Assembly (NCBI RefSeq): GCF_022565915.1
Contig: NZ_JAJOYX010000001.1
Span: forward strand, 310,001-374,000
DNA length: 64,000 bases
DNA from: Nesterenkonia sp. LB17
Lineage (GTDB): Bacteria; Actinomycetota; Actinomycetes; Actinomycetales; Micrococcaceae
Direction of reading: 5' to 3'
Positions 8,736 through 55,875 of this stretch are shown one piece after another. A program made the position numbers and the translations under genes. Each line of letters opens with the position of its first letter. Position 1 is the first letter of the stretch. The notes under the pieces are model-generated. The model ran no database searches, was not told the origin of the DNA, and was given only the letters and a program-made list of their open reading frames with translations.

Positions 8736-8854
8736 GCCGTCCGTCACTTTTTTCGACGTCATGTAGAAAACCGTGGAAGTCCGGGCGATAAGCTGGATGC
8801 GGGACATCGTCACCTGAGGTCCCGCACGGACGATCAATGCTGATGGAGGCATCT

Positions 8855-9565
8855 GTGAGCTACGGCAGCAACGCCCAGCGCACGCCCGAAGAGGTCAACA
8901 CCTCGGGCAAAGACTGGTTCACCCTCTACACCGTCTTCGCGCGGACCGGACCCGCTCCGCAGGGCGCCGACGTGGAGGTCGAGTTCGACCAGCTTGCCGG
9001 AGCGTTCGCCGAGCAGGAGGTCAGCTTCCGCGGCACCTACGACGTCTCCGCCATGCGCGACGAGGCCGACATCCTCACCTGGGTCACCGGCCCCTCAGCC
9101 GAGGGCCTGCAGGCCGCGGTGCGCCGCATCCGCCGCACCGCGATGTTCTCGCAGACCCGGATCGCGTTCTCCGCCATGGGCGTGCACCGCACCGCCGAGT
9201 TCGCCCGCAGCCACGTCCCGGCCTATGCCCTCGGGGTGCCGCCGGAGGACTGGCTGGTCATCTATCCGTTCAACCGCTCCTATGACTGGTACCTGCTGGA
9301 CCCGGCCAAGCGCGGGAAGATGCTGCGCGAGCACGGAATGCTCGGCCAGGAGTTCCCCTCGGTGCTGGCCAACACCACCTCGGCCTTCGCGCTGAACGAC
9401 TGGGAGTGGCTGCTCGCGCTGGAGGCGCCGAAGCTCACCGATCTGGTCGACATGATGCGCAAGCTGCGCGAGTCCGAGACCCGCTATCACGTACGCGATG
9501 AGATTCCCTTCTACACCGGACGCCGCCTGAAGGCCGCGTCGGAGATCGCTGAGGTTCTGCTGTGA
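8855..9565 (+). CDS. hemQ: Coproheme decarboxylase (chlorite dismutase-like)
   Basis: Converts Fe-coproporphyrin III (coproheme) to heme b with peroxide; last step of the coproporphyrin-dependent pathway. The start is set at GTG 8855 because GGAGG at 8845-8849 is ideally spaced from it and overlaps the in-frame ATG at 8843; a further in-frame ATG at 8837 lies upstream of the GGAGG. The product (~236 aa) has the family block VIYPFNRSYDWYLLDPAKRG, whose Tyr corresponds to the catalytic tyrosine segment of actinobacterial/firmicute HemQ. It ends overlapping hemH (GTGA), so the two are translationally coupled, which fits successive steps. Confidence 0.95.
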   Translation: MSYGSNAQRTPEEVNTSGKDWFTLYTVFARTGPAPQGADVEVEFDQLAGAFAEQEVSFRGTYDVSAMRDEADILTWVTGPSAEGLQAAVRRIRRTAMFSQTRIAFSAMGVHRTAEFARSHVPAYALGVPPEDWLVIYPFNRSYDWYLLDPAKRGKMLREHGMLGQEFPSVLANTTSAFALNDWEWLLALEAPKLTDLVDMMRKLRESETRYHVRDEIPFYTGRRLKAASEIAEVLL

Positions 9566-10896
9566 CGATCACCCCCGACAACGCCGAATCGGCCGAGAAC
9601 ACCGGATCAGCCGGGAACGCCGGACCGGCGCACCCGACCGAGACCTCCGATCACCCCACCGAGGCGCAGGCCGCCTCGGCAGTGGCGGACTCCTCCCAGG
9701 CCACGCCCACCCCGGGCACCGAGACCAGCCCCGACGCCGCCGAGGCGCCGGCTCCGCTTCCGGTGGACTATGCCGAGGGTTCCACCAAGGACCAGCCGGG
9801 CAACTACGACGCGATCCTGCTCGCCTCCTTCGGCGGCCCCGAGGGTCAGGATGACGTGCTCCCATTCCTGCGCAACGTCACCCGAGGTCGCGGCATCCCG
9901 GATGAGCGGCTAGAAGAGGTCGCCACGCACTACCGCGCCAACGGCGGGATCAGCCCGATCAACCAGCAGAACCGGGACCTCAAGGGGGCGCTGGAGGCCG
10001 AGGTCGCCGCCCGGCAGCTGAACATCCCGATCTACTGGGGCAACCGCAACTGGAACCCCTTCTTCACCGAGACCTTCCGCGAGATGCACGCTGCCGGACA
10101 CCGTCGGATCCTGGCGCTGGTCACCTCCGCGTACAACGGCTACTCCTCCTGCGGGCAGTACCGCGAGGACTTCTCACTCACCCTGGATGAGACCGGGCTG
10201 CGCGAGGAGATGAGCGTGGTGAAGGTTCGTCAGTTCTTCATGGACAAGGCGTTCATCGACCCGTTCAAGGACGCCCTGGCCGCCGGCATCGCCGATGTCC
10301 GGGCGCAGCTCGAGCAGGCCGGAAAGGCCGAGGCGAAGCCGAAGATCGTCTTCGTCACCCACTCCATCCCCAGCCGCAACGCCGAGGCCATGGGCCCGGA
10401 CCGGGTGATCGAGGAATACGGCACCGACGTCTACTCGGCCGAGCACCTCGCCGTCGCGCGCCACCTGATGGCCAGCGTCGAAGAGGCCGAGGGCCTGGAG
10501 CACTCACTGACCTTCCAGTCCCGATCCGGCAGCCCGAAGACCCCGTGGCTGGAGCCCGACATCAACGACGCCATCACCGAAGACGCCGAGGCCGGCGTCG
10601 CCGGTGTGGTGGTGATGCCCATCGGCTTCGTCTCCGATCACATGGAGGTGCTCTGGGACCTCGACACCGAGGCCAAGGACACCGCCGCGGAGCTCGGCCT
10701 GGCCTACCACCGCGCCGCGACCCCTGGCATCCAGGAGAAGTTCGTCTCCGGACTTATCGACGTGCTCAGCGAGTACCTGCAGGGCGTCAACGGTGAGCCC
10801 GTCGGCTTCGGCGAGCAGGTCGTGCCCGGCAAGTGGTCCGGCATCTGTGGTCCCTGCAACTGCACCCGCTTCCGCAAAGATGTCGCAAGGAGCTAG
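9562..10896 (+). CDS. hemH: Coproporphyrin ferrochelatase (CpfC)
   Basis: Inserts Fe2+ into coproporphyrin III (given the hemQ context) rather than protoporphyrin IX. The catalytic His lies in FVTHSIPSRN (His267), with the acidic partner in GFVSDHMEVLWDLD. Four cysteines match the [2Fe-2S] ligands described for actinobacterial ferrochelatases: Cys197 in YSSCGQY and Cys429, Cys432 and Cys434 in GICGPCNC. An N-terminal extension of ~75 residues, rich in Thr/Ser/Ala/Pro/Glu, precedes the first conserved block (YDAILLASFGGPE). It looks disordered and explains the 444-aa length. The GTG start overlaps the hemQ stop. Confidence 0.95.
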   Translation: MTITPDNAESAENTGSAGNAGPAHPTETSDHPTEAQAASAVADSSQATPTPGTETSPDAAEAPAPLPVDYAEGSTKDQPGNYDAILLASFGGPEGQDDVLPFLRNVTRGRGIPDERLEEVATHYRANGGISPINQQNRDLKGALEAEVAARQLNIPIYWGNRNWNPFFTETFREMHAAGHRRILALVTSAYNGYSSCGQYREDFSLTLDETGLREEMSVVKVRQFFMDKAFIDPFKDALAAGIADVRAQLEQAGKAEAKPKIVFVTHSIPSRNAEAMGPDRVIEEYGTDVYSAEHLAVARHLMASVEEAEGLEHSLTFQSRSGSPKTPWLEPDINDAITEDAEAGVAGVVVMPIGFVSDHMEVLWDLDTEAKDTAAELGLAYHRAATPGIQEKFVSGLIDVLSEYLQGVNGEPVGFGEQVVPGKWSGICGPCNCTRFRKDVARS

Positions 10897-11916
10897 ATGC
10901 CCACCTTCACCGTAGGCACCCGCGGCAGCAAGCTCGCGCTGACCCAGACGACGACGGCGGCCGAGGCGCTCGCCTCCCACGCCGACGCCGGATATGAGCT
11001 CATCACGGTCAAGACCGAGGGTGACATCCTCACCGGGCCGCTCGCGCAGATGGGCGGCACCGGAGTGTTCGCCTCCGCGCTGCGCCAGGCGCTGTTCGAC
11101 AAGACCTGTGATGTGGCCGTGCACTCGCTCAAGGACCTGCCGGCCAAGGATCTCGAGGGGCTTGCGATCGCCTCGGTGCCTTCTCGCGAAGACGTGCGCG
11201 ATGCGCTGTGCTCCGCCGATGACGTCCCGCTGGCCCAGCTGCCGCAGGGCGCGAAGGTCGGCACCGGCTCCCCGCGCCGGGCCGCACAGCTGCGCGCCGC
11301 CCGACCTGATCTGGAGATCGTGGACATCCGCGGCAACGTCGGCACCCGGCTGGCCCGGGTCCGCGGCCATGGGTCTGCGGCCGAGGCCTCACCGCAGGCA
11401 CCGAATGCCGCCCGGGGTGACCTGGACGCCGTCGTGCTCGCCGGGGCGGGGCTGAAGCGGCTCGGCCTGGAGCACCACATCGCCGAGCTGATCCCCACCG
11501 AGGTCATGCTCCCCGCCCCCGGACAGGGAGCCCTGGCCGTGGAGGTCCGCGCCGAGGATGCCGAGCCCACGGCGCCGCTCGGCATGGCGCTGGCGCTCTA
11601 TGACGACATCCCGGCCCGGCTGGAGACCTCCGCCGAACGGGGACTGCTGGCGAAGCTCAACGCCGGCTGCTCGGCGCCGATCGGCGGGCTCGCCCGCTAT
11701 GACGACAATCCCGACGGCGGCGCCACCCTGCGGCTGGACTCGGTGATCTGCGCGCCCGACGGCACCAAGGTGCAGCGCGCCGGGGCCGAGATCTCGATCG
11801 AGGCCGGGGCTGATCGCCGGGTTTCGGTGGACCGGGCGATCCAGCTCGGCACTCATGTCGCCGAGCAGCTGCTCGCCGAGGACTTCGGGCTGTTGCAGCA
11901 CGTCGTGGATTCCTAG
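10897..11916 (+). CDS. hemC: Hydroxymethylbilane synthase (porphobilinogen deaminase)
   Basis: Polymerises four porphobilinogens to hydroxymethylbilane. The cofactor-attachment cysteine is Cys258 in LNAGCSAPIGG, which carries the dipyrromethane. N-terminal GTRGSKLALTQT, VHSLKDLPAK and TGSPRRAAQLRAARPDLE are diagnostic. AAGGAG at 10887-10892 precedes the ATG. A short Ala/Pro insert (SAAEASPQAPNAARG) interrupts the region between domains 1 and 2. Length is 339 aa. Confidence 0.96.
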   Translation: MPTFTVGTRGSKLALTQTTTAAEALASHADAGYELITVKTEGDILTGPLAQMGGTGVFASALRQALFDKTCDVAVHSLKDLPAKDLEGLAIASVPSREDVRDALCSADDVPLAQLPQGAKVGTGSPRRAAQLRAARPDLEIVDIRGNVGTRLARVRGHGSAAEASPQAPNAARGDLDAVVLAGAGLKRLGLEHHIAELIPTEVMLPAPGQGALAVEVRAEDAEPTAPLGMALALYDDIPARLETSAERGLLAKLNAGCSAPIGGLARYDDNPDGGATLRLDSVICAPDGTKVQRAGAEISIEAGADRRVSVDRAIQLGTHVAEQLLAEDFGLLQHVVDS

Positions 11917-11927
11917 AAGCTGGCACC

Positions 11928-12740
11928 ATGCGCATCGCCCTGACCCGAGACCCCGCACAGGCGGGCCCGCTGGAGGCAGGGCTGCGCGCCGCCGGACTGC
12001 AGGTCCAGTTCCTGCCGGTCACCGAACAGCGACTGCCCGCCGACACCACCGAGCTGACGACGGCGCTCGAGCGGCTCTCACACGGGGACTTCGCGTGGGT
12101 GCTGTTCACCAGCGCCAACACCGTCCGGGCCCTGGTCAAGCTGGGCTGGGACGGCACCGTTCCGGCACAGGGACGCGTCGGCGTCGTCGGCCCCGGCACT
12201 GCCCGGGTGCTGCGCACGCTGACCGGCATCACCTCCCCGTGGATGCCTGAGGCGGAGAAGAGTGCGGCCGGGATGATCCAGGAGATCCCCGAGCCGGCCC
12301 CGGGTGCGAACACGGAGCTGCTGCTGCCGCAGTCGGCCCAGGCCCGGTCCCAGCTGCGCGACGGTCTCAGCGCCATCGGCTGGCAGGTCACCCAGGTCAG
12401 CGCCTATGAGACCGACTGCCTGGTGGTCGACGGAGCGCTCGCGCCCGGCGACTCGGACCGGCGGCTGCTCCCGCAGCCCGCCCGCGAAGACCTCCTGGAC
12501 CTCGATCAGCTCGCCGCGGACCTGCGCCGCGACCGGCTGACCCACGTGGACCCCACGGTTCTGCTGGTCACCAGCTCCTCGGCCGCCGACGGACTCGCGG
12601 ACCTCGGGGTCCCGGAGCGGGTCCGGCTGCTGGCCATCGGCCGGCCCACCGCCAAGACCCTCTCTCGCCGCGGCATCCCCGCCGCCAGTGTTCTCTCTGA
12701 GCCGAGCGCCGACGCTGTGATGGCCGCCCTGGGTCGCTGA
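11928..12740 (+). CDS. hemD: Uroporphyrinogen-III synthase
   Basis: Cyclises hydroxymethylbilane with D-ring inversion. Sequence conservation in this family is low. The N-terminal MRIALTRDPAQAGPLEAGL, the WVLFTSANTVRAL block, the LLLPQSAQARSQLRDGL block and the C-terminal VLLVTSSSAADGL/AIGRPTAKTL segments fit HemD well. Position directly after hemC and before hemB supports the call. Length 270 aa is normal. Confidence 0.92.
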   Translation: MRIALTRDPAQAGPLEAGLRAAGLQVQFLPVTEQRLPADTTELTTALERLSHGDFAWVLFTSANTVRALVKLGWDGTVPAQGRVGVVGPGTARVLRTLTGITSPWMPEAEKSAAGMIQEIPEPAPGANTELLLPQSAQARSQLRDGLSAIGWQVTQVSAYETDCLVVDGALAPGDSDRRLLPQPAREDLLDLDQLAADLRRDRLTHVDPTVLLVTSSSAADGLADLGVPERVRLLAIGRPTAKTLSRRGIPAASVLSEPSADAVMAALGR

Positions 12741-12848
12741 GAACTAGACTGACCGGCGGCGACACGCTTGAGCTGGACCGGCTGCGCAGTGACGCGCCGC
12801 CAGCCCGAGCGCACCGACCGTCATCCCCCTGATCACCAGGAGTCGAAC

Positions 12849-13979
12849 GTGAGTTTCCCCGAACAGCGCCCCCGCCGGCTGCGCCGCAGCCCCGCCATGC
12901 GCCGGATGGTGGCCGAGACCCGGCTGCACCCGGCCGACCTGATCCTGCCGGTCTTCGTCCGCGAGGGCCTCACCGAACCGGTGCCGATCAGCTCCATGCC
13001 CGGAGTGGTGCAGCACACCGAAGCCTCCCTGCTCACCGCCGCCGAAGAGGCCCGCGACCTCGGCCTGGCCGGGATCATGCTCTTCGGCATCCCCACCACC
13101 CGCGACGCCCAGGGCAGCGCCGGCCTGGACCCGCAAGGCATCCTCAACCGCTCCATCCGCGCTGTGAAGGACCGGGTCGGCGAGGACCTGGTCGTGATGA
13201 GCGACCTGTGCCTGGACGAGTTCACCGATCACGGGCACTGCGGGCTCGTCGACGAGGCCGGCGAGGTGGACAACGACGCCACCCTGGAGGTCTACGCCGA
13301 GATGGGCGTGGCCCAGGCCGAGGCGGGCGCCGACGTCGTCGCACCCTCGGGCATGATGGACGGCCAGGTCGCGGTGATCCGCCAGGCCCTGGACGAGGCC
13401 GGACACCAGCACGTGCCGATCCTCGCCTACGCCGCGAAATACGCCTCCGGCTTCTACGGCCCGTTCCGCGAGGCCGTGGACTCCCAGCTGAAGGGTGACC
13501 GCAAGCAGTACCAGATGGACGCCCCGAACCGCACCGAGGCGCTGCGCGAGGTCGAGCTGGATCTCGCCGAAGGCGCGGACATGGTGATGGTCAAGCCCGC
13601 CAGCGCCTACCTCGACATCCTCTCCGACACCGCCGCGATCAGCGACGTCCCGGTCTCGGCCTACCAGGTCTCCGGGGAGTACGCGATGATCGAGGCCGCC
13701 GCCGCCAATGGCTGGATCAACCGGCGCACCGTGGTCACCGAATCGCTGATCGCGATCCGCCGCGCGGGCGCCACCAACGTGCTGACCTACTACGCCGCCG
13801 AGGTGGCCGGATGGCTGCGCGAGGAGCTGGCCGGGTCACGCGGGAGTGCCTCGGCGTCCGGTGCGCAGACGCCGCCGAGCGCGCCCGCGCACCCGCCGAT
13901 CGAGCCCCGTCGGCCCACAGCCTCGACCCGCCCTGCCGACCAACCCCGCACCGACGCCGGCTTCCCGCCGGTCAGCTGA
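12849..13979 (+). CDS. hemB: Delta-aminolevulinic acid dehydratase (porphobilinogen synthase)
   Basis: Condenses two 5-aminolevulinates to porphobilinogen. GTG at 12849 is the start because AGGAG (12838-12842) lies 6 nt upstream and the product begins [14 protein letters not shown] as in homologues; the open frame further upstream has no support. The metal segment reads [14 protein letters not shown], a Cys-Asp-Cys variant of the zinc triad. The catalytic lysines are in [13 protein letters not shown] and [10 protein letters not shown]. After the usual end (AGWLREEL) the protein continues ~50 residues of Pro/Ala/Arg/Ser-rich, probably disordered tail. Confidence 0.95.
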
Positions 13980-44495: not shown

Positions 44496-45590
44496 TCAGC
44501 GCTGCGGGGCAGCGCTGTAGTCCACCACCACACGCCCCTCGATCTTGGCGTGCTGCATCTCGTCGAGGATCGCGTTGATGTCCTCGAGTGGACGGCGACT
44601 GTAGGTGGGACGGATCTTCCCCTGGGCGTAGAATTCCAGGGCTTCCACCATGTCCTGGCGGGTGCCAACGATCGATCCGCGGATGGTCAGCCCCTTCAGC
44701 ACGATGTCGAAGATCGGGGCGGGAAAGTCTCCCGGAGGCAGGCCGTTGAACACGATGGTGCCGCCGCGGCGGGTCATGGCGATGGCCTGACCGAAGGCCT
44801 TGGGGTGCACGGCGGTGACCAGGACGCCGTGGGTCCCGCCGGTCTTCTCCTGTATCTCGATGGCCGGATCCGTCATCATGGCGTTGACCACGATCTCGGC
44901 ACCGTGCTGCTTGGCCAGGGCCAGCTTGTCGTCGGCGACGTCAACCGCCACGACCCGCATGCCCATGGCCACTGCGTATTGGACAGCGATGTGGCCCAGC
45001 CCGCCGATGCCAGAGATGACCACCCACTGGCCCGGGCGGACCTCCGTCTGCTTCAGCCCCTTGTAGACGGTCACACCGGCGCAGAGCACCGGTCCGACCT
45101 CGTAGGGGTCTGAACCATCAGGGATGAGGGGGGCGTACTTGGCGTCCACGATCATGTATTCGCCGAACGATCCGTTCACGCTATAGCCACCGTTGTTCTG
45201 AGACTCGCACAGAGTTTCCCATCCGGTACGGCAGTATTCGCAGGTTCCGCAGGCACTCCACAGCCAGGCATTGCCCACCAGCTGGCCCACGGAAAGCTCG
45301 GTGACGCCTTCCCCCAGCTTCTCCACGGTCCCCACGCCTTCGTGGCCGGGGATGAACGGCGGACTGGGCTTGACCGGCCAGTCGCCCTCGGCGGCATGCA
45401 GGTCGGTGTGGCAGACGCCGGAGGAGATGAGCTTGACCAGGGCCTGGCCCGGCCCTGGCTCGGGAATGGCGACCTCTTTGATGACGAGGTCCTGCCCGAA
45501 GGCCTCTACGACTGCTGCCCTCATCGTGCCTTGGTGGGCCTGTTGGGTGTCCGAGTCCGTACTAGTGGAGGAAGCGGTGACATTGCTCAT
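44496..45590 (-). CDS. adhP: Zinc-dependent alcohol dehydrogenase (AdhP type)
   Basis: 364 aa from the ATG at 45590, which has AAGGAG 6 nt upstream; the longer frame lacks support. Catalytic zinc SSGVCHTDLHAAEGDW and GHEGVGTVEKLG; structural zinc CGTCEYCRTGWETLC; NAD site GIGGLGHIAVQYA. A ~20-residue Ser/Thr-rich N-terminus precedes the core. Likely interconverts ethanol and acetaldehyde, which fits fermentative or hypoxic metabolism beside the lactate genes. A DosR-like box and other repeats lie upstream. A 9-bp hairpin (44497-44517) covers its last codons. Confidence 0.92.
   Translation of the reverse strand: MSNVTASSTSTDSDTQQAHQGTMRAAVVEAFGQDLVIKEVAIPEPGPGQALVKLISSGVCHTDLHAAEGDWPVKPSPPFIPGHEGVGTVEKLGEGVTELSVGQLVGNAWLWSACGTCEYCRTGWETLCESQNNGGYSVNGSFGEYMIVDAKYAPLIPDGSDPYEVGPVLCAGVTVYKGLKQTEVRPGQWVVISGIGGLGHIAVQYAVAMGMRVVAVDVADDKLALAKQHGAEIVVNAMMTDPAIEIQEKTGGTHGVLVTAVHPKAFGQAIAMTRRGGTIVFNGLPPGDFPAPIFDIVLKGLTIRGSIVGTRQDMVEALEFYAQGKIRPTYSRRPLEDINAILDEMQHAKIEGRVVVDYSAAPQR
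44497..44517 (-). terminator. Hairpin overlapping the adhP stop codon
   Basis: CAGCGCTGC (44497-44505), GGG loop, GCAGCGCTG (44509-44517): a perfect 9-bp stem within the final codons of adhP. It may attenuate read-through into the AhpD-like gene. Confidence 0.5.
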
Positions 45591-45666: not shown

Positions 45667-45680
45667 CGGACCAACGTCCA
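45667..45680. promoter_or_regulatory. DosR-like box upstream of adhP
   Basis: CGGACCAACGTCCA, with the near-palindrome GGACcaacGTCC, resembles the better boxes at 45996 and 52908. It is 77 bp upstream of the adhP start. Confidence 0.45.
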
Positions 45681-45964: not shown

Positions 45965-46010
45965 TTGACCAACGTCCCTGGTCAGTCCAGCTAGTGGGAC
46001 CAACGGCCCT
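45965..46010 (+). promoter_or_regulatory. Pair of DosR/DevR-like boxes upstream of ldh-lctP
   Basis: GGGACCAACGGCCCT (45996-46010) matches the GGGAC...GGCCCT form of the mycobacterial dormancy box. TTGACCAACGTCCCT (45965-45979), 31 bp upstream (about three helical turns), is a weaker second copy. The dehydrogenase starts at 46095. Confidence 0.65.
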
Positions 46011-46094
46011 ATCTGCCGTCGTTTCTGGACCACATAGTGGATTCGGGCTCGGGAGACCGGGGATGGGATCGGCGAAAACAGGCGGAGGCAGGGC

Positions 46095-47099
46095 ATGCGG
46101 GTGGCCGTTTACAGTGCAAAGCCGTATGACGAGCAGTTCCTGACGGACGCCAATGTCGCCCATGGGCATGAGCTCTCCTTCCTGGAGACCCGTTTGTCGC
46201 CTGAGACCCTTCCGCTGGCTGCAGGCGCTCAGGCGGTATGTGTCTTCGTCAACGACGACGTGGGCGGGCCCGTGCTCGATGGTCTCAGCCGGCTAGGTGT
46301 CCGCAACGTGATGCTGCGGTCTGCGGGTTTCAACAATGTGGATGTGAAGGCGGCAGCGAAGCTCGGAATCTCGGTCTCCCGCGTCCCGGGATACTCCCCG
46401 CACGCCGTGGCGGAGCACTGCGTGGCCCTGGTGATGTCATTGAATCGCCAGATCCACCGGGCCTACAACCGGGTCCGGGAAGGCAACTTCGCGTTGAACG
46501 GTCTGATGGGATTCGATCTCCACGGCAGGACGGTGGGAGTCGTGGGCGCTGGCCGGATCGGGACCTGTTTCGCGCGGATCATGCTCGGCTTCGGCTGCCG
46601 GGTGGTAGTGAGTGATCCCCACCCCAGCGAGGAGTGCCGGAGGATGGGAGTGGAGTACCTGCCTCTGGAAGAAGTGCTGGCAGACAGTGACATCGTCTCG
46701 CTGCACCTGCCGCTGACACCGCAGACCCACCATTTCATTCAGGCTGAACGTCTTGCCAGCATGCGTGACGGTGTAATGCTCATCAATACCAGCCGAGGTG
46801 CGCTGATCGACACGAGCGCGGTGATCGATGCCCTCAAACAGGGGAAGATCGGTTACCTGGGTCTGGACGTGTACGAAGAAGAGGAAGATCTGTTCTTCGA
46901 AGACCTTTCGGACGAGGTCCTGCACGATGACGAGTTCTCGCGACTGCTCACCTTCCCCAACGTGCTGATCACCGGCCATCAGGCGTTCTTCACCCGTGAC
47001 GCGATGACGCACATCGTGACCACCACGATGGAGAATCTCACGGCGGCGGCGCGCGGCGAAGTCCTGAACCAGATCACCGTTGACGACCTCGCAGAGTAG
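46095..47099 (+). CDS. D-2-hydroxyacid dehydrogenase (D-lactate dehydrogenase-like)
   Basis: 334 aa NAD-dependent dehydrogenase of the LdhA/Ddh group. RSAGFNNVDVKAAA, Rossmann motif GVVGAGRIGTCFARIM, NTSRGALIDT (catalytic Arg region), LDVYEEEEDLFFED and the catalytic His in ITGHQAFFTRDA match fermentative D-LDHs closely. GGAGG at 46082-46086 serves the ATG. Followed after 11 bp by a lactate permease, so the operon makes or uses D-lactate and moves it across the membrane. DosR-like boxes upstream suggest oxygen-limited expression (inference). Confidence 0.9.
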   Translation: MRVAVYSAKPYDEQFLTDANVAHGHELSFLETRLSPETLPLAAGAQAVCVFVNDDVGGPVLDGLSRLGVRNVMLRSAGFNNVDVKAAAKLGISVSRVPGYSPHAVAEHCVALVMSLNRQIHRAYNRVREGNFALNGLMGFDLHGRTVGVVGAGRIGTCFARIMLGFGCRVVVSDPHPSEECRRMGVEYLPLEEVLADSDIVSLHLPLTPQTHHFIQAERLASMRDGVMLINTSRGALIDTSAVIDALKQGKIGYLGLDVYEEEEDLFFEDLSDEVLHDDEFSRLLTFPNVLITGHQAFFTRDAMTHIVTTTMENLTAAARGEVLNQITVDDLAE

Positions 47100-47110
47100 C
47101 GGGGCAGGAG

Positions 47111-48628
47111 ATGCTGGCATTCCTGGCAGCTGTACCGGTCCTGTTGGTCCTGGTGCTCATGACTGTCGCCAACTGGTCGGCAGCCAGGGCAGGGCTGGTG
47201 ACGGCCGCGCTCACCCTGGTGCTGGCCGTGGCGGCCTTCGGCTTCGGGGGTCCGGCGGATCCGTTCAGCGTGGTCTCGGGCACGGCCGGCGTGGTGGCCG
47301 AGGCTTCATTCATCGCCGCGACGGTGGCGGGAATCATCGGTCCCGCGTTGGGGATCCACTACCTCCAGCAACGCACCGGCGCTGCCGAGCGGTTGCACGC
47401 CGGCTTGGCCCGCCTCCACCCGGACCCCCGGATGGGGGCGCTCCTGGTGGCTTGGTTCTTTGCGCTGTTCCTTGAGGGTGCCGCTGGGTTCGGTACGCCG
47501 GTGGCGCTGGCCGCACCCTTCCTGGTCGCCGCAGGTCTCCCGCCGGTGCGTGCCGTGGCGGCGGCCCTCATGGGCCACGCCGCCGGAGTCTCCTTCGGTG
47601 CCATCGGCACGCCGGTGCTGGCGCAGAGTGCGCTGGTGGATTTCTCAGGGACGGAGCTGGCAAGGGCCACGGCTCCTTACCACGTCATCCTCGGCGGGAT
47701 CCTGACAGCCGCAGTCGTCCTGACCATCGACCGCGCTATGCCCGGTACCAGGAGGTTATGGACCTGGGGTGTCCTGGCCGCCGTCTCCTTCCTTGTGCCC
47801 TATGGCCTGATCGCCGCTTTTGTCGGTCCTGAGCTGCCCACGCTAGGAGGTGCCATCGCCGGTGTCGCCATCTTCGCCGCACTCCTTGTCCGACGGCGGC
47901 GCCTGGAGAACGCCATCTCCGGCGGTGGACCTGCGGAGGCCGGTGACCCAGGAGGGCTGCTGCGCGCAGCCGCCCCGTACCTGGTCCTGGTGCTTCTCGT
48001 CCTCGCGACTCGCCTGATTCCTCCGGTCCGAGACCAGCTTGAGGGCGTCACGATCGAGTGGGTGACCGGTACCGGGTTCACCGGCAGCGTCCAGCCGCTG
48101 TTCCACCCGGCGGCATTGCTGACCGTGGCCTTTGTCTCCGGAGCGGTCCTCCAGCGGGCCTCGCGACGCGATGTCCGTGGGGCATTCATCACTGCGACCA
48201 GGCAGCTCGGCCCGGTGCTGGCGGCGCTGGTCGCGATGATCTCTATCGCCCGCACCATGTCCTATGCCGGGATGACCAACGAGCTGGCCTACGCGGCGGC
48301 CGGCATCGGGATAGCGTGGCCTCTGCTGTCCCCAGCCGTCGGAGCGTTCGGGACGTTCGTCACCGGCTCCGCCACCGCGTCCAACGTGCTCTTCACGGAA
48401 CTCCAGACCACTGCCGCCCACGCTGCAGACCTTCCGGCGCTGCCCCTCCTCGGGGCACAGGGATTCGGAGCCGCGGTAGGCAATATCGTCTGCCCGCACA
48501 ATATCGTGGCCGCCGTCGCCACCGTGGGCCTCACCGGGAAAGAGGGAAAGGTGCTGCGCTCCACGTTTCCCATCGCCATTCTCTATGTCGCGCTCGGAGG
48601 TCTCCTGGCCTTTGCCTTCACGCGCTGA
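47111..48628 (+). CDS. lctP: L-/D-lactate permease (LctP family)
   Basis: 505 aa, about 12-14 TM helices. Family blocks FALFLEGAAGFGTPVALAAPFL, GVSFGAIGTPVLAQSAL, TGSATASNVLFTELQ and VCPHNIVAAVATVGLTG are clear. Moves lactate (or glycolate) with protons. The GGAG of the leader directly abuts the ATG, so initiation may depend on coupling to the upstream gene, whose stop is 11 bp away. Confidence 0.93.
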   Translation: MLAFLAAVPVLLVLVLMTVANWSAARAGLVTAALTLVLAVAAFGFGGPADPFSVVSGTAGVVAEASFIAATVAGIIGPALGIHYLQQRTGAAERLHAGLARLHPDPRMGALLVAWFFALFLEGAAGFGTPVALAAPFLVAAGLPPVRAVAAALMGHAAGVSFGAIGTPVLAQSALVDFSGTELARATAPYHVILGGILTAAVVLTIDRAMPGTRRLWTWGVLAAVSFLVPYGLIAAFVGPELPTLGGAIAGVAIFAALLVRRRRLENAISGGGPAEAGDPGGLLRAAAPYLVLVLLVLATRLIPPVRDQLEGVTIEWVTGTGFTGSVQPLFHPAALLTVAFVSGAVLQRASRRDVRGAFITATRQLGPVLAALVAMISIARTMSYAGMTNELAYAAAGIGIAWPLLSPAVGAFGTFVTGSATASNVLFTELQTTAAHAADLPALPLLGAQGFGAAVGNIVCPHNIVAAVATVGLTGKEGKVLRSTFPIAILYVALGGLLAFAFTR

Positions 48629-48672
48629 CCTGAGGTCGAACCTCCCAGCACCTGGAAGAGGTCGAAGACGAG

Positions 48673-49611
48673 TCACACGGTGGGCAGTTCAGCTTCGAAC
48701 CGCGTGACGTCTTCGGCGCGGCAGAGCTCGGTTCCGGGCAACATCGCGGTCGCGCTTCCTGCCGCGACGGCCGTCCGTAAGGCCTCAGCGAGGGGTCTGC
48801 CCTCGGCCAGGCGCAGCACGAGACCGCCGAGGAAGGCATCACCGGCTCCGACCGGGCTCGCCACCTGCACCTTCGGCGTCGGCAGGCGCAGCGCCCCCGC
48901 CGCAGAGACGAGCAGGGCGCCCGCCGATCCCATGGTGAGCGCGATGACTTCCGCGCGACCGTGGTCGATGAGGTCGCGAACAGCGTCGAGCTGTTCTTCA
49001 GGACTCAATTCGTGGTCAGCCCCGACAAGTTCGGCGAGCTCGTCCCGACTCGGTTTGATCAGGAACACTCCTTCGGCCAGGGCCGCGTGGAGCGGGACCC
49101 CTGCCGCGTCGACCACGAGGTGAACGCCCTGTTCGGCCACGGAGCGGGCAAGTATGGCGTAGAAGTCTTCGGGCACCCCGGGTGGGAGACTTCCACTGGC
49201 AACAAGGTATCCACCGTGCGGGAGATGGGCGGTGACGGTTGAGAGGCAGTCGTGCCACTCCGCTTCGCTCAGGGCCGGCCCCGGCAGGACGAACCGGTAC
49301 TGATCGCCCGTCGACGTCTCGTCGACGGTGAAGCTCTCCCGAGTGTCACCCGCGATCGCGATCACCGTGCCGTCGATCCCTTCATCCGCGGCGAACCTCC
49401 GGTACTTCGCGCCAGTGGGACCGCCGAGTGGGTATATCGGCGTGGAGCTGCCGTTCAGGTTGCGTATCGCGCGGGACACATTCACCCCGCCGCCACCGGG
49501 ATCGACGCGAGCCGGTCCGCAGCGCAGCTTGTGCTCGGCGCGCACCCGATCCACCGAGCTCGACACGTCGAGGGCGGGATTCATCGTCAGCGTCACGATC
49601 GGTGAGTGCAT
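48673..49611 (-). CDS. pfkB: PfkB-type phosphofructokinase / hexose-phosphate kinase
   Basis: 312 aa from the ATG at 49611 (MHSPIVTLTMNPALDVS). The PfkB N-terminal motif is CGPARVDPGGGGVNVSRAI and the C-terminal signature with catalytic Asp is VASPVGAGDAFLGGLVLRLAEG. This is the 6-phosphofructokinase-2/1-phosphofructokinase/tagatose-6-phosphate kinase branch. In M. tuberculosis pfkB (Rv2029c) is a DosR target, and here two DosR-like boxes lie 154-189 bp upstream. A fragment of the same gene (GPARVDPGGG coding) is found at 52761 in the duplicated upstream region. Confidence 0.92.
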   Translation of the reverse strand: MHSPIVTLTMNPALDVSSSVDRVRAEHKLRCGPARVDPGGGGVNVSRAIRNLNGSSTPIYPLGGPTGAKYRRFAADEGIDGTVIAIAGDTRESFTVDETSTGDQYRFVLPGPALSEAEWHDCLSTVTAHLPHGGYLVASGSLPPGVPEDFYAILARSVAEQGVHLVVDAAGVPLHAALAEGVFLIKPSRDELAELVGADHELSPEEQLDAVRDLIDHGRAEVIALTMGSAGALLVSAAGALRLPTPKVQVASPVGAGDAFLGGLVLRLAEGRPLAEALRTAVAAGSATAMLPGTELCRAEDVTRFEAELPTV

Positions 49612-49694
49612 TGGTTCTCTGCCTTTCCTCGACCACACAAGCCCAAGAAGACGGGCAACGATTCGGTGCGCGGCACCGCCCGGAGACAAGCCCA

Positions 49695-49865
49695 ACATCG
49701 ATCGGCGGCGGACGTTCATCGCCCTCCGCTGCCTTCACCATCCAGTGGCGCGTGCGCCTCGAGTAGGGCCGGAAGTCCCCTCGGCAAGTCCATCGGCCCT
49801 GCTGGGATGAGTGTCCTGATGGACAGGGCAGGAGGGGAGCGCCGGAAGCCCTCAGGGGATGCCCG
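49695..49865. repeat. ~170-bp repeat, copy 1 (pfkB upstream)
   Basis: Aligns with 52817-52985 at a constant offset of 3122, then 3121, with scattered substitutions and a single one-base gap visible. Shared landmarks are GCGGACGTTCATCGCCCT, CTTCACCATCCAGTGG, AGGGCCGGAAGTCCC, CATCGGCCCT and ATGAGTGTCC. It contains the DosR-like boxes. Confidence 0.85.
49765..49800 (-). promoter_or_regulatory. DosR/DevR-like boxes upstream of pfkB
   Basis: AGGGCCGGAAGTCCC (49765-49779) is, on the other strand, GGGACTTCCGGCCCT, a full match to the hypoxic-response form GGGACTTNNGGCCCT. A weaker AAGTCCATCGGCCCT starts 21 bp later (49786-49800). Confidence 0.7.
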
Positions 49866-49939
49866 GGCGGACTGCCAAGCAGAGAGTCGCGTCAAGCGTG
49901 AAAGGCCGCAGGCGTCCCGTGTTTGTGTCGCTGCCCAGC

Positions 49940-49955
49940 AGTGATGTAAATCACA
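49940..49955 (+). promoter_or_regulatory. CRP/GlxR-type site upstream of the M14 peptidase
   Basis: AGTGATGTAAATCACA matches the GlxR/CRP consensus TGTGANNTANNTCACA at all but the first base. The inner GTGAT-GTAA-ATCAC also fits an FNR-like pattern. It is ~90 bp upstream of the ATG at 50047. Confidence 0.65.
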
Positions 49956-50046
49956 TATACCCTCATGGTTGGCCCCGGGCACCGACGGTCGGGGCTGCCG
50001 CCAGCTCGTATAGCGCGGTGGCATCAGCAGCACCTCTAGGAGACAC

Positions 50047-51222
50047 ATGCAGTCCACCAAGCCGACCAGTCGTCGTCGCCGCCTTGCGGCCGTCGTGACC
50101 GCCGCGTCACTCATGCTCGCCGCACCAGCCGGCGTCGCACCCGCAGTGGCGAGCGCCAACTTCCCCTCGCCCAACGGGCAGACCAACATCTCCAGCATCT
50201 TGACCTACGCGGATGTGCAGAAGGAGCTGCAGAAACTCGAGAAGACCTCCCGCTTCAACGTCGATGTCTTCACCCTGGCCGAGGCCGGCACCTCAGTGAA
50301 CACCTCCGAACAGGGCCGTGACCTCTATGTCGCCACCGTGGGGACGGGCCCGGAAGAGGTCTGGCTCCAGGGACGCATTCACGGGAATGAGCCCTACGGC
50401 ACCGAGTCCCTGCTGACTCTGCTCAAGGACCTGGGCACGAACGGCTCGGCGGATTACAACCTGCTGCGTGAGAAGTACACCTTCCACATCATCCCGATGT
50501 ACAACCCGGACGGTTCCGAGGCGAATATCCGTCAGACGATCCTCTGGAACGACTTGACCGGTTCCCCCGAACTCAATGAGAACGGCAGTGAACGGCGAGT
50601 AGACCTCAACCGTGACTGGACCGAAGCAGGGTTCGCGGCCAAAGAGTCCTTGGCGTTCTACGAATACTGGACCATGGTGAAACCTGACTTCGGTGTGGAC
50701 ATCCACCACCAAGGCTTGAAGCAGCAATGGGGAACAGGTGATGACGTCACGTTGTCCCTCGGAATTTCCCTGGCCCCGGGTGGACCTACTCTGCCGGGTC
50801 TTGCAGATGGTACCTACGACGTTCTGACCCGGCAGATGATGGTCCATGTCTTCGATGAACTCTCGAAGTACGGCTCCATCAATATCGATCGCTACCAGGT
50901 GGGCAACGGCCTGGAGATCGATATCAAGGGTGGCGTCGTCTCAGCGATGATGCTGGGCCTGGACTACCAGGGACTGAATCCGGAAGGTCACAGCAACCCG
51001 GTCGTCTTCCTTGAGACGAGTGGAAACACCTCCGATGGGAGCCTGGGCCAGAAAGCCCGTGGCAAGTCGGTCCGGCAGAATGTGCTGGCACTGGAGGAGC
51101 TTCTGATCGGAATGGCGACGGGAGAGATCCAGCAGGAGGATCCGGAGCGGTGGGATGAGATCCCTCATCAGCCGACGACTGGATACCTGACTGACTACGC
51201 AGGCACGATTCCGGCTCAGTAG
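50047..51222 (+). CDS. Secreted M14 family zinc carboxypeptidase
   Basis: 391 aa with a Sec signal peptide (Arg-rich n-region RRRRLAAVV, hydrophobic core, cleavage near AVAS-ANF). Zinc ligands: His112 and Glu115 in GRIHGNEPYG and the His in VDIHHQG (220/221). Catalytic Glu323 in VVFLETSGN, with MYNPDGSEAN and RVDLNRDW also typical. Probably exported and digests peptides or peptidoglycan stems. A GlxR/CRP-like site upstream suggests cAMP/carbon or oxygen-linked control. A 17-bp terminator follows. Confidence 0.93.
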   Translation: MQSTKPTSRRRRLAAVVTAASLMLAAPAGVAPAVASANFPSPNGQTNISSILTYADVQKELQKLEKTSRFNVDVFTLAEAGTSVNTSEQGRDLYVATVGTGPEEVWLQGRIHGNEPYGTESLLTLLKDLGTNGSADYNLLREKYTFHIIPMYNPDGSEANIRQTILWNDLTGSPELNENGSERRVDLNRDWTEAGFAAKESLAFYEYWTMVKPDFGVDIHHQGLKQQWGTGDDVTLSLGISLAPGGPTLPGLADGTYDVLTRQMMVHVFDELSKYGSINIDRYQVGNGLEIDIKGGVVSAMMLGLDYQGLNPEGHSNPVVFLETSGNTSDGSLGQKARGKSVRQNVLALEELLIGMATGEIQQEDPERWDEIPHQPTTGYLTDYAGTIPAQ

Positions 51223-51232
51223 GCGGAGCTGG

Positions 51233-51277
51233 ACACGGGGGATTCTCCCTGCCGGCTGGCGGGAGAATCCCCCGTGT
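51233..51277. terminator. Bidirectional terminator between M14 peptidase and membrane protein
   Basis: ACACGGGGGATTCTCCC (51233-51249) is perfectly complementary to 51261-51277, loop 11 nt. The two flanking genes converge on it, and the second gene's stop begins at 51278. Confidence 0.85.
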
Positions 51278-52654
51278 TCAAGGGATGGGGTTTCGCCGTG
51301 CTGCCTCAGGGACGGCCTCGCCGTCGACCTCAACGGAGGGTGGCCGTTGCAGCAGTTCGAGCAGCAGGATGGCGATGAGCGCGCCGATCGCGGTCCAGAG
51401 GGTCACCTCTGGCGTCAGCGGCCTCACGAGCAGCACGATCGCCGCGCCGATGACGGCGATCGCGATCCGGATGTACCGGCGGGCGCGGTAGAGGAACGCG
51501 CCGAACCGGCCGGTCGTCGCCCCGGCGCTCTCCGCCGCAGCACGTGTTCGCCTGGCCGTGTCGACGGTCAGGCGGCGGACCGCGATGGCGCCACGGAATG
51601 GCCCGGCGAGGTAGGCGACGACGGCGGTGGTCACGCCAGTCACCCCGACGGCGAGCACCGTCGAGCAGAGCAGGGGCACCAGGGCGTCGTAGACCGCCTC
51701 GGCGGCACTCGACGGCAGGTGCTGCGGCGAGATCGAGGCGACCGTGGCGATGCGTCCGACGGCCACGCCGAGCGCGAGGAACGCCATCGCGAACGTCAGA
51801 CCGACGCCGGCCCAGATCAACGCCCTCGCCTTCCTCCTCGCGACGAGGACTCCGCCCGCGAGCAGGCCGATGCTCACCCAGGGGAGCACGAAGCCGAGCA
51901 CGTCGAGCGCCTGGTAGGCCGTGCGTGCCTGGACGAGCTCATCGGACTGGGCGACGACGACCGTCCGGTCGACGTCGGGGATGCGGTCGGCCAGCGCGAA
52001 CCCCTGCGCGGTCAGCTGCTCCTTGACGGAGGCGATGATGGGTCCGATCTGGATGCCCACTTCGCCCGTGTCGCTGATCACGACGGCGCCGGAGGTGTCC
52101 CCGCTGAGGACGGCGGTCAGCCGGGCATGGCTGATCCGCAGCGACTGGTCCCACACCTGCTCGAACTCGTCCGAGGCGATGAGTCGCTCGGTCGTGGAGC
52201 GGATCTGCGACTGGGCGCCCTCCACCGCGGGCTGCTCGAGGAGCTGGAGCGCGGCGGCGGCCCTGGGCGGGAGGTCGAGGGTCGCGATTCCGTCGAAGAG
52301 GTCGGACGTGATCGTCTCGATGTCGATCTCCTCATTGATGGCCGCGGTGATCTCGTCGACCAGGAAGGCCTGGAAGGCCGGGTCCTCGAGGATCGGCGAC
52401 ACGGTGGCGACGAACTGGTCGGTGTTGGTGACTTCGGTCTTCGTCCATGCTGCGACGACGGCGAGCGGGGCGAGGAACACCCCGAGCGCGAGCAGCAGCG
52501 CGGCGAGGAACGCGCGTCCACGTCCGGTCCGGCGCGTGGGGGCGGGCGGTGGCGCCTCCATCGGCTCGGTCCGCAGCTTCGACTGCAGCCGGGCGACCTC
52601 CGCCGACAGCCTTGCAATCTCCTGGTCCCGGGTTTCAGCGACACCCATGTGCAC
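51278..52654 (-). CDS. Integral membrane protein of unknown function
   Basis: 458 aa. N-terminal ~45 residues include a short coiled-coil-like stretch (EIARLSAEVARLQSKL) and a Pro-rich basic linker. TM1 is at ~50-70 (AFLAALLLALGVFLAPLAVVAAW). A large soluble loop of ~160 residues follows, with repeated predicted amphipathic helices. Then come three to five TM helices between ~230 and 430 and a short polar tail. No family was recognised with certainty. The start is GTG 52654 or ATG 52648; AGAGG upstream favours GTG slightly. The duplicated DosR-box region lies ~235-270 bp upstream, so it may belong to the same regulon. Confidence 0.8.
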   Translation of the reverse strand: MHMGVAETRDQEIARLSAEVARLQSKLRTEPMEAPPPAPTRRTGRGRAFLAALLLALGVFLAPLAVVAAWTKTEVTNTDQFVATVSPILEDPAFQAFLVDEITAAINEEIDIETITSDLFDGIATLDLPPRAAAALQLLEQPAVEGAQSQIRSTTERLIASDEFEQVWDQSLRISHARLTAVLSGDTSGAVVISDTGEVGIQIGPIIASVKEQLTAQGFALADRIPDVDRTVVVAQSDELVQARTAYQALDVLGFVLPWVSIGLLAGGVLVARRKARALIWAGVGLTFAMAFLALGVAVGRIATVASISPQHLPSSAAEAVYDALVPLLCSTVLAVGVTGVTTAVVAYLAGPFRGAIAVRRLTVDTARRTRAAAESAGATTGRFGAFLYRARRYIRIAIAVIGAAIVLLVRPLTPEVTLWTAIGALIAILLLELLQRPPSVEVDGEAVPEAARRNPIP

Positions 52655-52760
52655 CGCGCCTCTCGATCTGGAGGGAGGCTTCGGAGAACGCCTCGGATTC
52701 GCACCAGCATGCTCCCGGACATGGGCGCGAACAAGGTACGTCGGCCCGCCATCGCCACCA

Positions 52761-52790
52761 CCGGGATCGACGCGAGCTGGTCCTCTGCGC
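52761..52790 (-). pseudogene. Relic of the pfkB 5' region
   Basis: The minus strand here encodes GPARVDPGGG in the pfkB frame, with nucleotide identity to 49497 onward (CCGGGATCGACGCGAGC). Spacing to the flanking repeat is ~56 bp instead of ~198 bp in copy 1, so ~142 bp including the start codon are missing. Confidence 0.6.
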
Positions 52791-52816
52791 GGCGGCGCCC
52801 CTCAGAGAAGAGCACC

Positions 52817-52985
52817 ACATCGCTCGGCCGCGGACGTTCATCGCCCTTCGCCGCCTTCACCATCCAGTGGGGCGCGCGCCTCGAGCAGGGCCGGAAGTCC
52901 CACAGGCAGGACCATCGGCCCTATTCGATGAGTGTCCCGCCCGGCACGGTAGGAGAGGAGCGCCGGGACGGCTCGGGAGACACTG
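52817..52985. repeat. ~170-bp repeat, copy 2 (P-type ATPase upstream)
   Basis: Second copy of 49695-49865 with the same box arrangement, placed between the divergent membrane-protein and ATPase genes. Confidence 0.85.
52887..52922 (+). promoter_or_regulatory. DosR/DevR-like boxes upstream of the P-type ATPase
   Basis: AGGGCCGGAAGTCCC (52887-52901) is identical to the pfkB box. AGGACCATCGGCCCT (52908-52922) is a better second box than in copy 1. Start-to-start spacing is again 21 bp. Confidence 0.7.
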
Positions 52986-53061: not shown

Positions 53062-55875
53062 ATGTCCGCTGTGAATCTGGGGGAGTCGCACCCGCGAGGT
53101 GAGCGACGGCAACGTTCGCCGGCCGACCTCACCCACCACCCGGCCGCCGCTTCGGGTTCACCGAACAAGCCTCACGCCCATTCCGCCGCTCACGTGCTCG
53201 AGGGCCTCGCCACCACTCGCTCTGGACTTGAGTCGGACGAGGTGCACCGGCGCCATACGCACTTCGGGCCGAACAGTCTCCCCGAGCCTTCGCGCACCCA
53301 CCCGGTCCTGCGCTTCCTGGCGCAGTTCAACAACGCCATCATCTACGTCCTCCTCGTGGCAGCGGTGATCAAGCTCGTTTCGCGCGACTACATCGACGCG
53401 TCCGTGATCTTCGCGGTCGCCCTGATCAACGCCATGATCGGATTCATCCAGGAGGGACAGGCCGAAAAGGCGCTGCGTGGGATCCGCCGAATGCTCTCTC
53501 CGCGCGCGACGGTGAGACGCGATGGCGGATGGCACGACATCCAAGCAACCACGCTTGTACCAGGGGACATCATTCGCGTCCATGCCGGTGACCGCGCCGC
53601 GGTCGACGCGAGGCTGGTCGAAGTACGTGACGTCAGGGCCGATGAGGCGGCGCTGACGGGTGAGGCGGTGCCCGCAGCGAAGCACACCAGGCCAGTCGAA
53701 CATGAAGCGCTCCTCGGTGACCGGCACAACATGCTCCACGCCGGGTCGGTCGTAGTAGCGGGACGTGCCGAGGCGGTCGTCACCGCCACGGGAACCCGCA
53801 CAGAACTTGGGCGCATTCAGAAGCTGGTGCGCGACGTGGAGCGCACCGACACCCCACTGATCCGTTCGATCAACCGGCTCGGGCGCCAGATCACTGCCAC
53901 CGCGCTCGTGCTGATGTCCGTCATGGTGGCCCTCGGGTTCGTGTTGCACGGTGACTCGTTCGAAGAGCTGGTGCCCTCGGCCATCGCTTTCGCGGTAGCT
54001 GCGGTGCCGGAAGGTCTGCCCGCCGTCGTGACGATCACCCTCGCACTGGGCGTGCAGCAGATGGCCGCACAGCGAGCGATCATCCGTCGACTCGCCGCAG
54101 TAGAGACCCTCGGGTCGGTCACCGTCATCTGCTCGGACAAGACCGGAACCCTGACCAAGAACGAGATGACCGTGCGCGCTGCCGCGACAGCTGTTTCCCA
54201 GTACACGGTCACGGGCGAGGGATACAACCCTGATGGGTCGGTGCTGCGAGATGGTGCGGTGGTTGATTCGTCCTGTGCTGACCTTCTTGAACTGGCGCTC
54301 GTCATGGCGCTGTGCAACGACGCGCGCCTCGATCACACGGCTGCCGGCGAGTGGCGAGTCGTGGGCGATCCCACCGAAGGTGCGCTGATGAGTTTCGGCC
54401 GCAAAGCGGGCGTCGACCTGGCTGGATACGGGCGCCGAGATGAGCTCCCGTTCGACGCCGAGGTGAAGTACATGGCCACCCTTGATCAGTCCGAATCGGG
54501 AGAACAGTTCGTCTCAGTGAAGGGCGCACCCGACCGTCTTCTCACCTTCTGCGAGTTTCAGCGTCGGGCCGACGGAGGGCAGGATCCGATAGAGCCCGCT
54601 CGGTGGCATGCACTGATCGATGCATACACCGCCCAAGGCATGAGGGTCCTCGCAGCCGCGCGCCGTGATATGCCATCGGATGCGGTGACCGTCGAACATG
54701 CTGAGCTTCGAGGCCTGGTGATGCTGGGAATCGTCGCCATCGCCGACCCGCCGCGGCCAGAAGCGACAGCCGCGATCGGCGAGTGCCAGGACGCAGGCGT
54801 CCGGGTGAAGATGATCACCGGTGACCACGCACTCACCGCCCACGCGATCGCCACGGAGATGGGACTCGCCGATACCGCCGCGACCACGCTGACCGGGGCG
54901 GACATCGACCACATGGACGACGAACAGCTGCGGGCCAGGGTCGGCGACGTCGATGTGTTCGCGCGAACCAGTCCTGAACACAAGATGCGCATCATTGCGG
55001 CTCTGCAGTCCCTCGGCGGGGTGGTCGCGATGACGGGCGACGGAGTCAACGACGCTCCCGCGCTGACCCGCGCCGACGTCGGCGTCGCCATGGGCATGAA
55101 GGGCACAGAGGCCGCGAAGGATGCTTCCGACGTCGTCCTTGCCGACGACAACTTCGCTACCATCGAGCGAGCCGTGCGTGAGGGTCGGCGCGTGTACGAC
55201 AACCTGCAGAAGTCGGTGGTGTTCATCCTGGCGACGACCCTCGGACAGGCGCTCGTCGTCTTCACCGCAGTCGCGGTCGGCTATCCGGATCCGCTGCAGC
55301 CCACCCAGATTCTCTGGGTGAACCTCGTCACCGCCGTCACTCTGTCGCTCGCATTCGCCTACGAGCCCGTCGAACCTGGAACGATGACGCGACCACCGCG
55401 ACCGCCCGAAGACTCGATCCTCGCAGGCAGCCTCTTGGCGTTGGCGGGAACGGGTATCGTGGTGGCCGCCGTGACGACCACAGCGTTCTTCGCCGCACTC
55501 GCTTCCGGCGCCGACCTGGATGCCGCACGCGCTGCCGCGGTGGCGGTGCTGGTGGTCTCTCAGATCGCCGTTCTGTTCAATGTGCGCCTGCTGCGTCGCT
55601 CGAGCATCACCCGCCGTGTCCTCACGGGGAATCGCGCAGTGTGGATCTCCATCGCCGTACTTGCCGTGCTGCAGACTGCGTATACCTATCTGCCACCCCT
55701 CCAGGTATGGTTCGGATCCGTCCCACTTTCCCCAGCTCAATGGGTGACCGCGTTCGGTTACGCCCTCGCAAGCTTCCTGTTGGTCGAGGTGGTCAAAGCA
55801 ACGGGGCGGTACCGTGCGAATCGCACGTCACCGCCGAGGCGCTCACGCCGCTCGCGGCTTGGGCGGGGTGAGTAG
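53062..55875 (+). CDS. P2-type cation-transporting ATPase (CtpF/SERCA-like)
   Basis: 937 aa. ATG 53062 is chosen because GGAGG (53052-53056) precedes it. Order: N-terminal actuator ([10 protein letters not shown]), TM4 [15 protein letters not shown], phosphorylation site [12 protein letters not shown] (Asp359), nucleotide-binding KGAPDR, hinge [22 protein letters not shown], then C-terminal TM helices. PEGLP with the long C-terminal membrane domain fits Ca2+/Mn2+-type P2A/P2B pumps. M. tuberculosis CtpF (Rv1997) is the close functional analogue and a DosR target; the boxes upstream support the same control here. Transported ion not proven. Confidence 0.93.

Follow-up and report, generated by a model that had tools for sequence, protein, structure and literature searches.

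A probable DosR-type regulon with boxes upstream of ldh, pfkB and a cation ATPase gene in Nesterenkonia sp. LB17

The DosR (DevR) switch of Mycobacterium tuberculosis, with its kinases DosS and DosT, is well known, and OsdR of Streptomyces coelicolor is the nearest described extension of a DevR-type system outside mycobacteria (PMC5069765). In the portions of these sources used here, pfkB and ctpF appear in the table of M. tuberculosis DosR targets (PMC4082495), and DevR is described as using neighbouring strong and weak boxes, with the proximal one lying over the −35 position (PMC3029386). Among the open-access papers listed by the literature searches, judged by titles and the starts of abstracts, none deals with DosR in Nesterenkonia or its family. 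The stretch of DNA analysed here, termed the window, comprises 64,000 nt (G000:C1:310001-374000) of the genome of Nesterenkonia sp. LB17 (2.82 Mb in 10 contigs, 99.7% complete). An initial annotation of the window proposed that DosR-type boxes were present in pairs upstream of a D-lactate dehydrogenase-lactate permease unit (ldh-lctP), pfkB and a CtpF-like ATPase gene, and singly upstream of adhP, and that these boxes reflected a low-oxygen regulon. The analyses described here indicated that the boxes are real and that the regulon idea, now partly supported, largely holds. The ldh, pfkB and P-type ATPase intergenic regions are probably promoters of a DosR/DevR/OsdR-type regulon that would be driven by haem kinases and seems to have recruited ldh-lctP, pfkB and the pump.

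Two complete dosS-dosR pairs were detected in the genome, one on contig C4 (L023; kinase 11338-13032, regulator 13029-13691) and one on contig C7 (L025; kinase 8031-9725, regulator 9722-10369), and a lack of any DevR homologue, which would have spoken against the initial annotation, was not encountered. The best PDB relative of both regulators (DosR1 and DosR2, 70% identical to each other) was M. tuberculosis DevR, with E values of 4e-60 and 9e-59, followed by VraR at 2e-35 and 7e-34. Both contain Response_reg and GerE domains (a receiver plus a LuxR-type helix-turn-helix), and in alignments with DevR the phospho-acceptor D54 and a KTVKN stretch were invariant in both; in DevR, Asp54 is phosphorylated and Lys179, Lys182 and Asn183 contact bases (PMC4082495). 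In a 30-row tree, DosR1 and DosR2 grouped with DevR and were separate from two further LuxR-type regulators encoded by this genome, the support of 84/87 being moderate and below the starred level. The closest named relatives of DosR1 were in five Nesterenkonia genomes (71-83% identity), and a dosR gene is present in N. aurantiaca and N. sandarakina. Comparison of DosR2 with NCBIfam yielded no model over its cut-off, the best being MadR (155.6 bits; cut-off, 300). Both kinases had a GAF-GAF-HisKA_3-HATPase arrangement (Pfam), and His149 and Tyr171 of DosS, the proximal and distal residues of the GAF-A haem pocket (PMC4082495), were aligned with His and Tyr in each. A third DosS-like kinase gene (L026:478-2181; G000:C8) shared 98.8% identity with the C7 kinase gene over 1708 bp and was followed by a 49-bp dosR relic, marking a duplicated locus from which the regulator has been lost; no box with 0 or 1 mismatch was detected outside genes in the first 12 kb of the C8 contig.

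Boxes were scored with a matrix trained on 33 non-coding boxes from other genomes only (17 loci, L209-L225), which had themselves been selected by pattern with at most one mismatch. The scan had a floor of 8 bits and covered 0.80 Mb of the 2.82-Mb genome, 14.3% of the sampled bases being non-coding; the sampled stretches had often been picked around box matches, which biases the counts and not the split between coding and non-coding sequence, and genes were called with a simple caller. The matrix from relatives took the place of one built from 26 Streptomyces OsdR sites, with which enrichment had been weak: at 12 bits, 4 of 10 sites were non-coding compared with 1.4 expected, and at 14 bits 0 of 3. 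Mismatches were counted against the form GGGACYNNNGKCCCT.

The ldh promoter contains a strong, exact box, GGGACCAACGGCCCT, at 45996..46010 on the plus strand (20.3 bits, rank 7 in the 0.80 Mb) and a weaker box, TTGACCAACGTCCCT, at 45965..45979 on the same strand (2 mismatches, 13.3 bits, about rank 22-24). Upstream of pfkB, an exact box facing this gene, GGGACTTCCGGCCCT, is located at 49765..49779 on the minus strand (17.4 bits, rank 14) and is accompanied by a degenerate partner, AAGTCCATCGGCCCT, at 49786..49800 on the plus strand (3 mismatches, 12.6 bits, about rank 25-26). The same exact 15-mer, GGGACTTCCGGCCCT, faces away from the ATPase gene at 52887..52901 on the minus strand (20.1 bits, rank 9), while AGGACCATCGGCCCT faces the gene at 52908..52922 on the plus strand (1 mismatch, 18.8 bits, rank 12). 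The matrix scan suggested with the initial annotation placed the six boxes at ranks 7, 9, 12, 14 and about 22 to 26 in the 0.80 Mb. The proposed pairing was borne out to the extent that all six boxes exist at these positions, each pair having one exact box and a partner with 2, 3 or 1 mismatches, respectively. The single box proposed for adhP (CGGACCAACGTCCAA at 45667) had 3 mismatches and scored 3.7 bits, below the scan floor, and was not counted; adhP could share the ldh boxes.

The placement of these sites was biased towards non-coding sequence. The exact form was found 11 times in the genome, always inside the sampled stretches; 10 of these occurrences avoid called genes, and for 8 of them a called start lies no more than 450 bp downstream. 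Among 18 sites of at least 15 bits, 16 were non-coding, compared with 2.6 expected; strong boxes thus favour sequence outside genes well beyond expectation, contrary to what would have told against the annotation. In 20 fetched loci, most of them selected because they contained boxes or dosR, all 19 exact matches were non-coding, and 10 of 30 one-mismatch matches were coding.

A further regularity was detected downstream of the boxes. In 42 rows from other genomes, the A, A and T of an A-x-A-x-T pattern lay 32, 34 and 36 nt away from the axis of the box, and a matrix of these rows was used to rank 55 offsets per promoter. For ldh, the best of the 55 offsets was CATAGT at 46033..46038 (plus strand), a putative −10 element located 22 nt after the strong box. 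The equivalent positions, also 22 nt after the box, were occupied by GATGGT for pfkB (49737..49742, minus strand, rank 4 of 55) and by CACGGT for the ATPase gene (52945..52950, plus strand, rank 3 of 55), both −10-like but weak. For 10 other rows of this genome, the element was the best of the 55 offsets in 5 and ranked 10th to 28th in the other 5. A TANNNT form of the −10 element was rejected as it produced no peak (57 rows, highest count of 2); the element observed was CANAGT.

Elsewhere in the genome, strong sites were located before four BON-domain genes (L022, L023, L024 and L025), a universal stress protein (USP) gene, a flavodoxin gene and an alcohol dehydrogenase gene with a USP gene after it. 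The box-bearing universal stress genes for which the initial annotation had advised a search were, therefore, present and were joined by BON-domain genes. Four genomes of the genus (L210, L214, L217 and L219) contain an island of USP, BON, pyridoxamine-phosphate oxidase (PNPOx) and dehydrogenase genes. In each of them a box precedes the first BON gene, and in three there is also a box next to the USP gene. In L212, L215, L216 and L223, dosR is followed by a BON gene that has a box; the BON gene after dosR in L222 had no box with 0 or 1 mismatch.

These observations are consistent with a mechanism in which haem-binding, DosS-like GAF kinases would be activated by a drop in oxygen and then phosphorylate the partner DosR. 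A dimer of DosR1 or DosR2 would then occupy GGGACYNNNGKCCCT, centred near −43 and over the −35 position, and recruit RNA polymerase to the CANAGT element 22 nt downstream, with cooperative binding at a second box, weaker and at a distance of about 20 or 31 bp. The regulon would comprise a core of USP, BON, PNPOx and alcohol dehydrogenase genes, to which the D-lactate dehydrogenase (D-LDH) and lactate permease, the PfkB kinase and the cation pump have been added; duplication of a single two-way promoter module would account for the addition of the kinase and the pump. Oxygen is proposed as the signal because the haem-pocket residues are conserved and because of the published work.

The genes downstream of the ldh boxes fit such a signal. 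The ldh product (46095..47099, plus strand; Pfam 2-Hacid_dh) has as its best solved relative a protein labelled fermentative D-LDH (E = 4.6e-120), and lctP (47111..48628, plus strand; Pfam Lactate_perm, with NCBIfam LctP below its cut-off) begins 11 bp after it. The divergent adhP gene (44496..45590, minus strand) encodes an alcohol dehydrogenase that exceeds the cut-off for NCBIfam AdhP. The idea that fermentation genes carry boxes as part of an oxygen-limitation response was supported for ldh by the exact box, the fermentative enzyme and the retained haem pocket of the kinases and not for adhP, whose own box fails; ldh and lctP are likely recruits of a DosR/OsdR regulon, with oxygen itself the presumed input. 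Links to DosR loci were also seen in other genomes: pieces of a lactate permease (76-79%) follow a USP gene in the DosRS locus of G015 (62% complete), and 8 Microbacterium loci have an AdhP-like gene (49-51%) in the vicinity of dosR. The box at L211:4524 of G004 has an adhP gene with 95% identity close by, but it is situated between convergent genes and was disregarded as support.

One alternative is that the boxes are DosR sites responding to redox, nitric oxide or another stress rather than to oxygen, with ldh, pfkB and the pump belonging to a general USP-type stress response. The universal stress and BON-domain genes that make up the core targets would fit such a response, and nitric oxide, carbon monoxide and redox inputs have been noted for DevR/DosS (PMC5069765). 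The haem His and Tyr retained in both kinases and the presence of a fermentative D-LDH among the likely targets speak to some extent against this alternative, and we consider it unlikely.

The pfkB and ATPase promoters proved to be copies of one module. The pfkB copy (49670..49845) and the ATPase copy (52792..52966) are 82% identical over 176 bp, and a 41-bp relic of pfkB coding sequence (52753..52793, minus strand), 88% identical to pfkB positions 49488-49528, lies beside the ATPase promoter. The relic and copied module (52753-52966) thus illustrate, on a small scale, how a promoter is duplicated and a gene lost. In the simplest history, a divergent pfkB-boxes-ATPase unit would have been duplicated, with one gene kept per copy and the ATPase-facing box decaying in the pfkB copy; the sequence fetched contained no intact ancestor, the module matching only its own pfkB locus there, apart from 47 bp in L053 (E = 6e-4). 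As the two promoters are copies of each other they count once, and the three box-bearing promoters put forward in the initial annotation all stand while representing two independent instances. The adjoining genes encode a PfkB-family sugar kinase (48673..49611, minus strand; Pfam PfkB, with an NCBIfam hexose kinase subfamily over cut-off) and a P-type cation ATPase (53062..55875, plus strand; Pfam E1-E2_ATPase and Cation_ATPase; best NCBIfam model a PMR1-type Ca pump, below cut-off), termed CtpF-like in the initial annotation. A 456-residue protein without a Pfam match is encoded at window positions 51278-52648, between the pfkB relic and an M14 peptidase gene.

It is also conceivable, but again improbable, that only the core USP, BON and alcohol dehydrogenase promoters and that of ldh are functional and that the pfkB/ATPase module is a decaying copy whose boxes no longer matter. 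The weak −10 elements, the degenerate partner box at 49786 and the pfkB relic would fit such a copy, and no box with at most one mismatch was seen within 400 bp of any of the 14 other pfkB genes of the family. Against this, the 15-mer GGGACTTCCGGCCCT is unchanged in both copies despite 18% divergence of the module and recurs before adhP beside dosRS in G095. In that genome, which belongs to a different genus, the genes flanking dosRS are an AdhP-like gene (47%), an ATPase gene (38%) and flavodoxin, BON and USP genes, and the adhP boxes, GGGACTTCCGGCCCT and GGGACCATCGGCCCT, are those of the ATPase pair in the window save one base, with a spacing of 58 instead of 21 bp. Genes for pfkB were detected in 15 of the 245 family genomes, 13 of them with DosR; a DosS-like kinase gene adjoins pfkB in G046, and pfkB (44-45%) is located near dosR in 4 mycobacterial loci. 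The evidence on pfkB and ctpF as conserved DosR targets was mixed: both genes are in the published M. tuberculosis table (PMC4082495), the window boxes are strong and an ATPase gene is located near dosRS in G095, but the boxless pfkB genes give no support to pfkB as a conserved target in the family.

Co-occurrence of box and regulator was examined in 245 family genomes using the strict form GGGACYWWNGKCCCT (the WW form), with a mirrored control in which the pattern was read backwards. DosR, called with a two-row profile (E <= 1e-50, at most 12 candidates scored per genome), was present in 93 genomes. The strict box was detected in 54 of these 93 and in 13 of the 152 others (Fisher, 5e-17) and, with the genus left out, in 49/86 versus 13/143; the mirrored pattern was found in 58/93 and 65/152. 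In total, there were 103 boxes versus 112 mirrors in genomes with DosR and 14 versus 88 in the remainder. Within 54 of 79 loci from the DosR search (L062-L115), the exact pattern occurred 27 times in 21 loci and its mirror 0 times. The ldh relatives of G003 and G087, both without a DosR match, lacked a box, which fits, but these are two cases.

Several findings weigh against a DosR interpretation of the three promoters. The strict form was chosen after inspection of the loose-pattern list of the genus genomes, and the loose pattern gave no separation, since 28 of the 30 genus genomes contain it irrespective of whether they have DosR. The strict box is missing from 39 of the 93 genomes with DosR and present in 13 of the 152 without. 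The WW form is present in the ldh box and absent from the pfkB/ATPase 15-mer, which has TCC in the middle, and the ldh box is accordingly the only one addressed directly by the family test; this 15-mer, GGGACTTCCGGCCCT, also occurs once in G013, a genome without DosR. At the E values used, ldh was detected in 2/30 and pfkB in 1/30 genus genomes (ldh in 2/245 of the family), and because of this rarity the promoters could not be footprinted. The −10-like elements of pfkB and the ATPase gene are weak and the other pfkB genes of the family boxless, as described above. Finally, the 11 exact boxes in this genome compare with 9 for the mirrored pattern, and the number of boxes alone is, therefore, no evidence.

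A further LuxR-type regulator of this genome, 36% identical to DosR2, might use the boxes in place of DosR, and the 13 genomes with a strict box and no DosR match, five of them in one genus, could be taken to indicate such a regulator. This explanation is very unlikely as the box tracks DosR within genera, the observed total being reached in 0 of 5000 permutations when labels were shuffled within genera, and as 39 of 101 box places in genomes with DosR are within 20 kb of the DosR match, compared with about 1.3 expected by a rough estimate. In genus g32, 5 of 16 genomes have the strict box without a DosR match; a diverged DosR or another regulator may use the box there. That the boxes are functionless GC-rich palindromic words, for which the similar number of mirrored sites might be cited, is the least credible explanation of all in the light of their non-coding placement, matrix ranks and co-occurrence with DosR.

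The inferred DosR-type regulon resembles the M. tuberculosis system in its regulator and kinase families, the haem-pocket residues, the Lys and Asn residues of the recognition helix and the pairing of strong and weak boxes. It differs in that two complete dosS-dosR pairs are present, the best targets include BON-domain genes, the likely targets include D-LDH and lactate permease (unlisted in the consulted part of the PMC4082495 table) and the pfkB genes in the remainder of the family are boxless. With OsdR-OsdK of S. coelicolor it shares a DevR-type regulator outside mycobacteria and neighbourhoods containing USP, alcohol dehydrogenase, PNPOx and pyruvate phosphate dikinase genes, whereas the Streptomyces consensus is AGGGCCGATCGGCCCT and, as noted above, its matrix was only weakly enriched here (PMC5069765). 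While the DosR switch itself is known, the family in which it occurs and the double dosRS set appear to be new, as do the regular appearance of BON genes as targets, the constant distance to the −10 element in this group and the likely recruitment of lactate fermentation.

The 245-genome test extends the DosR/OsdR regulon to the Nesterenkonia family and thereby provides non-mycobacterial relatives for studies of how the mycobacterial dormancy switch senses its signal and how its promoters are organised. A DosR match of at least 64% identity was present in 10 of 30 genus genomes, and this presence and absence within one genus, together with the duplicated pfkB/ATPase promoter, makes target gain and loss testable. 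A more tentative possibility, which we regard as rather doubtful, is that DosR acts in this lineage as a fermentation rather than a dormancy switch. At low oxygen it would directly drive the formation of D-lactate and the transport of lactate, and it would gain targets by copying of the two-way pfkB-boxes-ATPase promoter and by boxes at a fixed 22 nt from CANAGT.

Two further sets of genes were noted in the vicinity of DosR-type boxes. In three other genomes of the genus (L209:4269-5423, L212:7862-9037 and L218:10930-12084), a protein with a signal-like start is encoded next to dosRS or to USP genes, and its counterpart here (L022:10806-12026) is 64-68% identical to these relatives and has no passing Pfam family, with Bactofilin below the cut-off; this protein is an unnamed steady neighbour of the DosR core. 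At L031:6791-8386 (G000:C3), flavodoxin and DUF805 genes have DosR-type boxes of 15.0 and 14.5 bits, and the box of the DUF805 gene is followed by a −10-like element at the best of 55 offsets.

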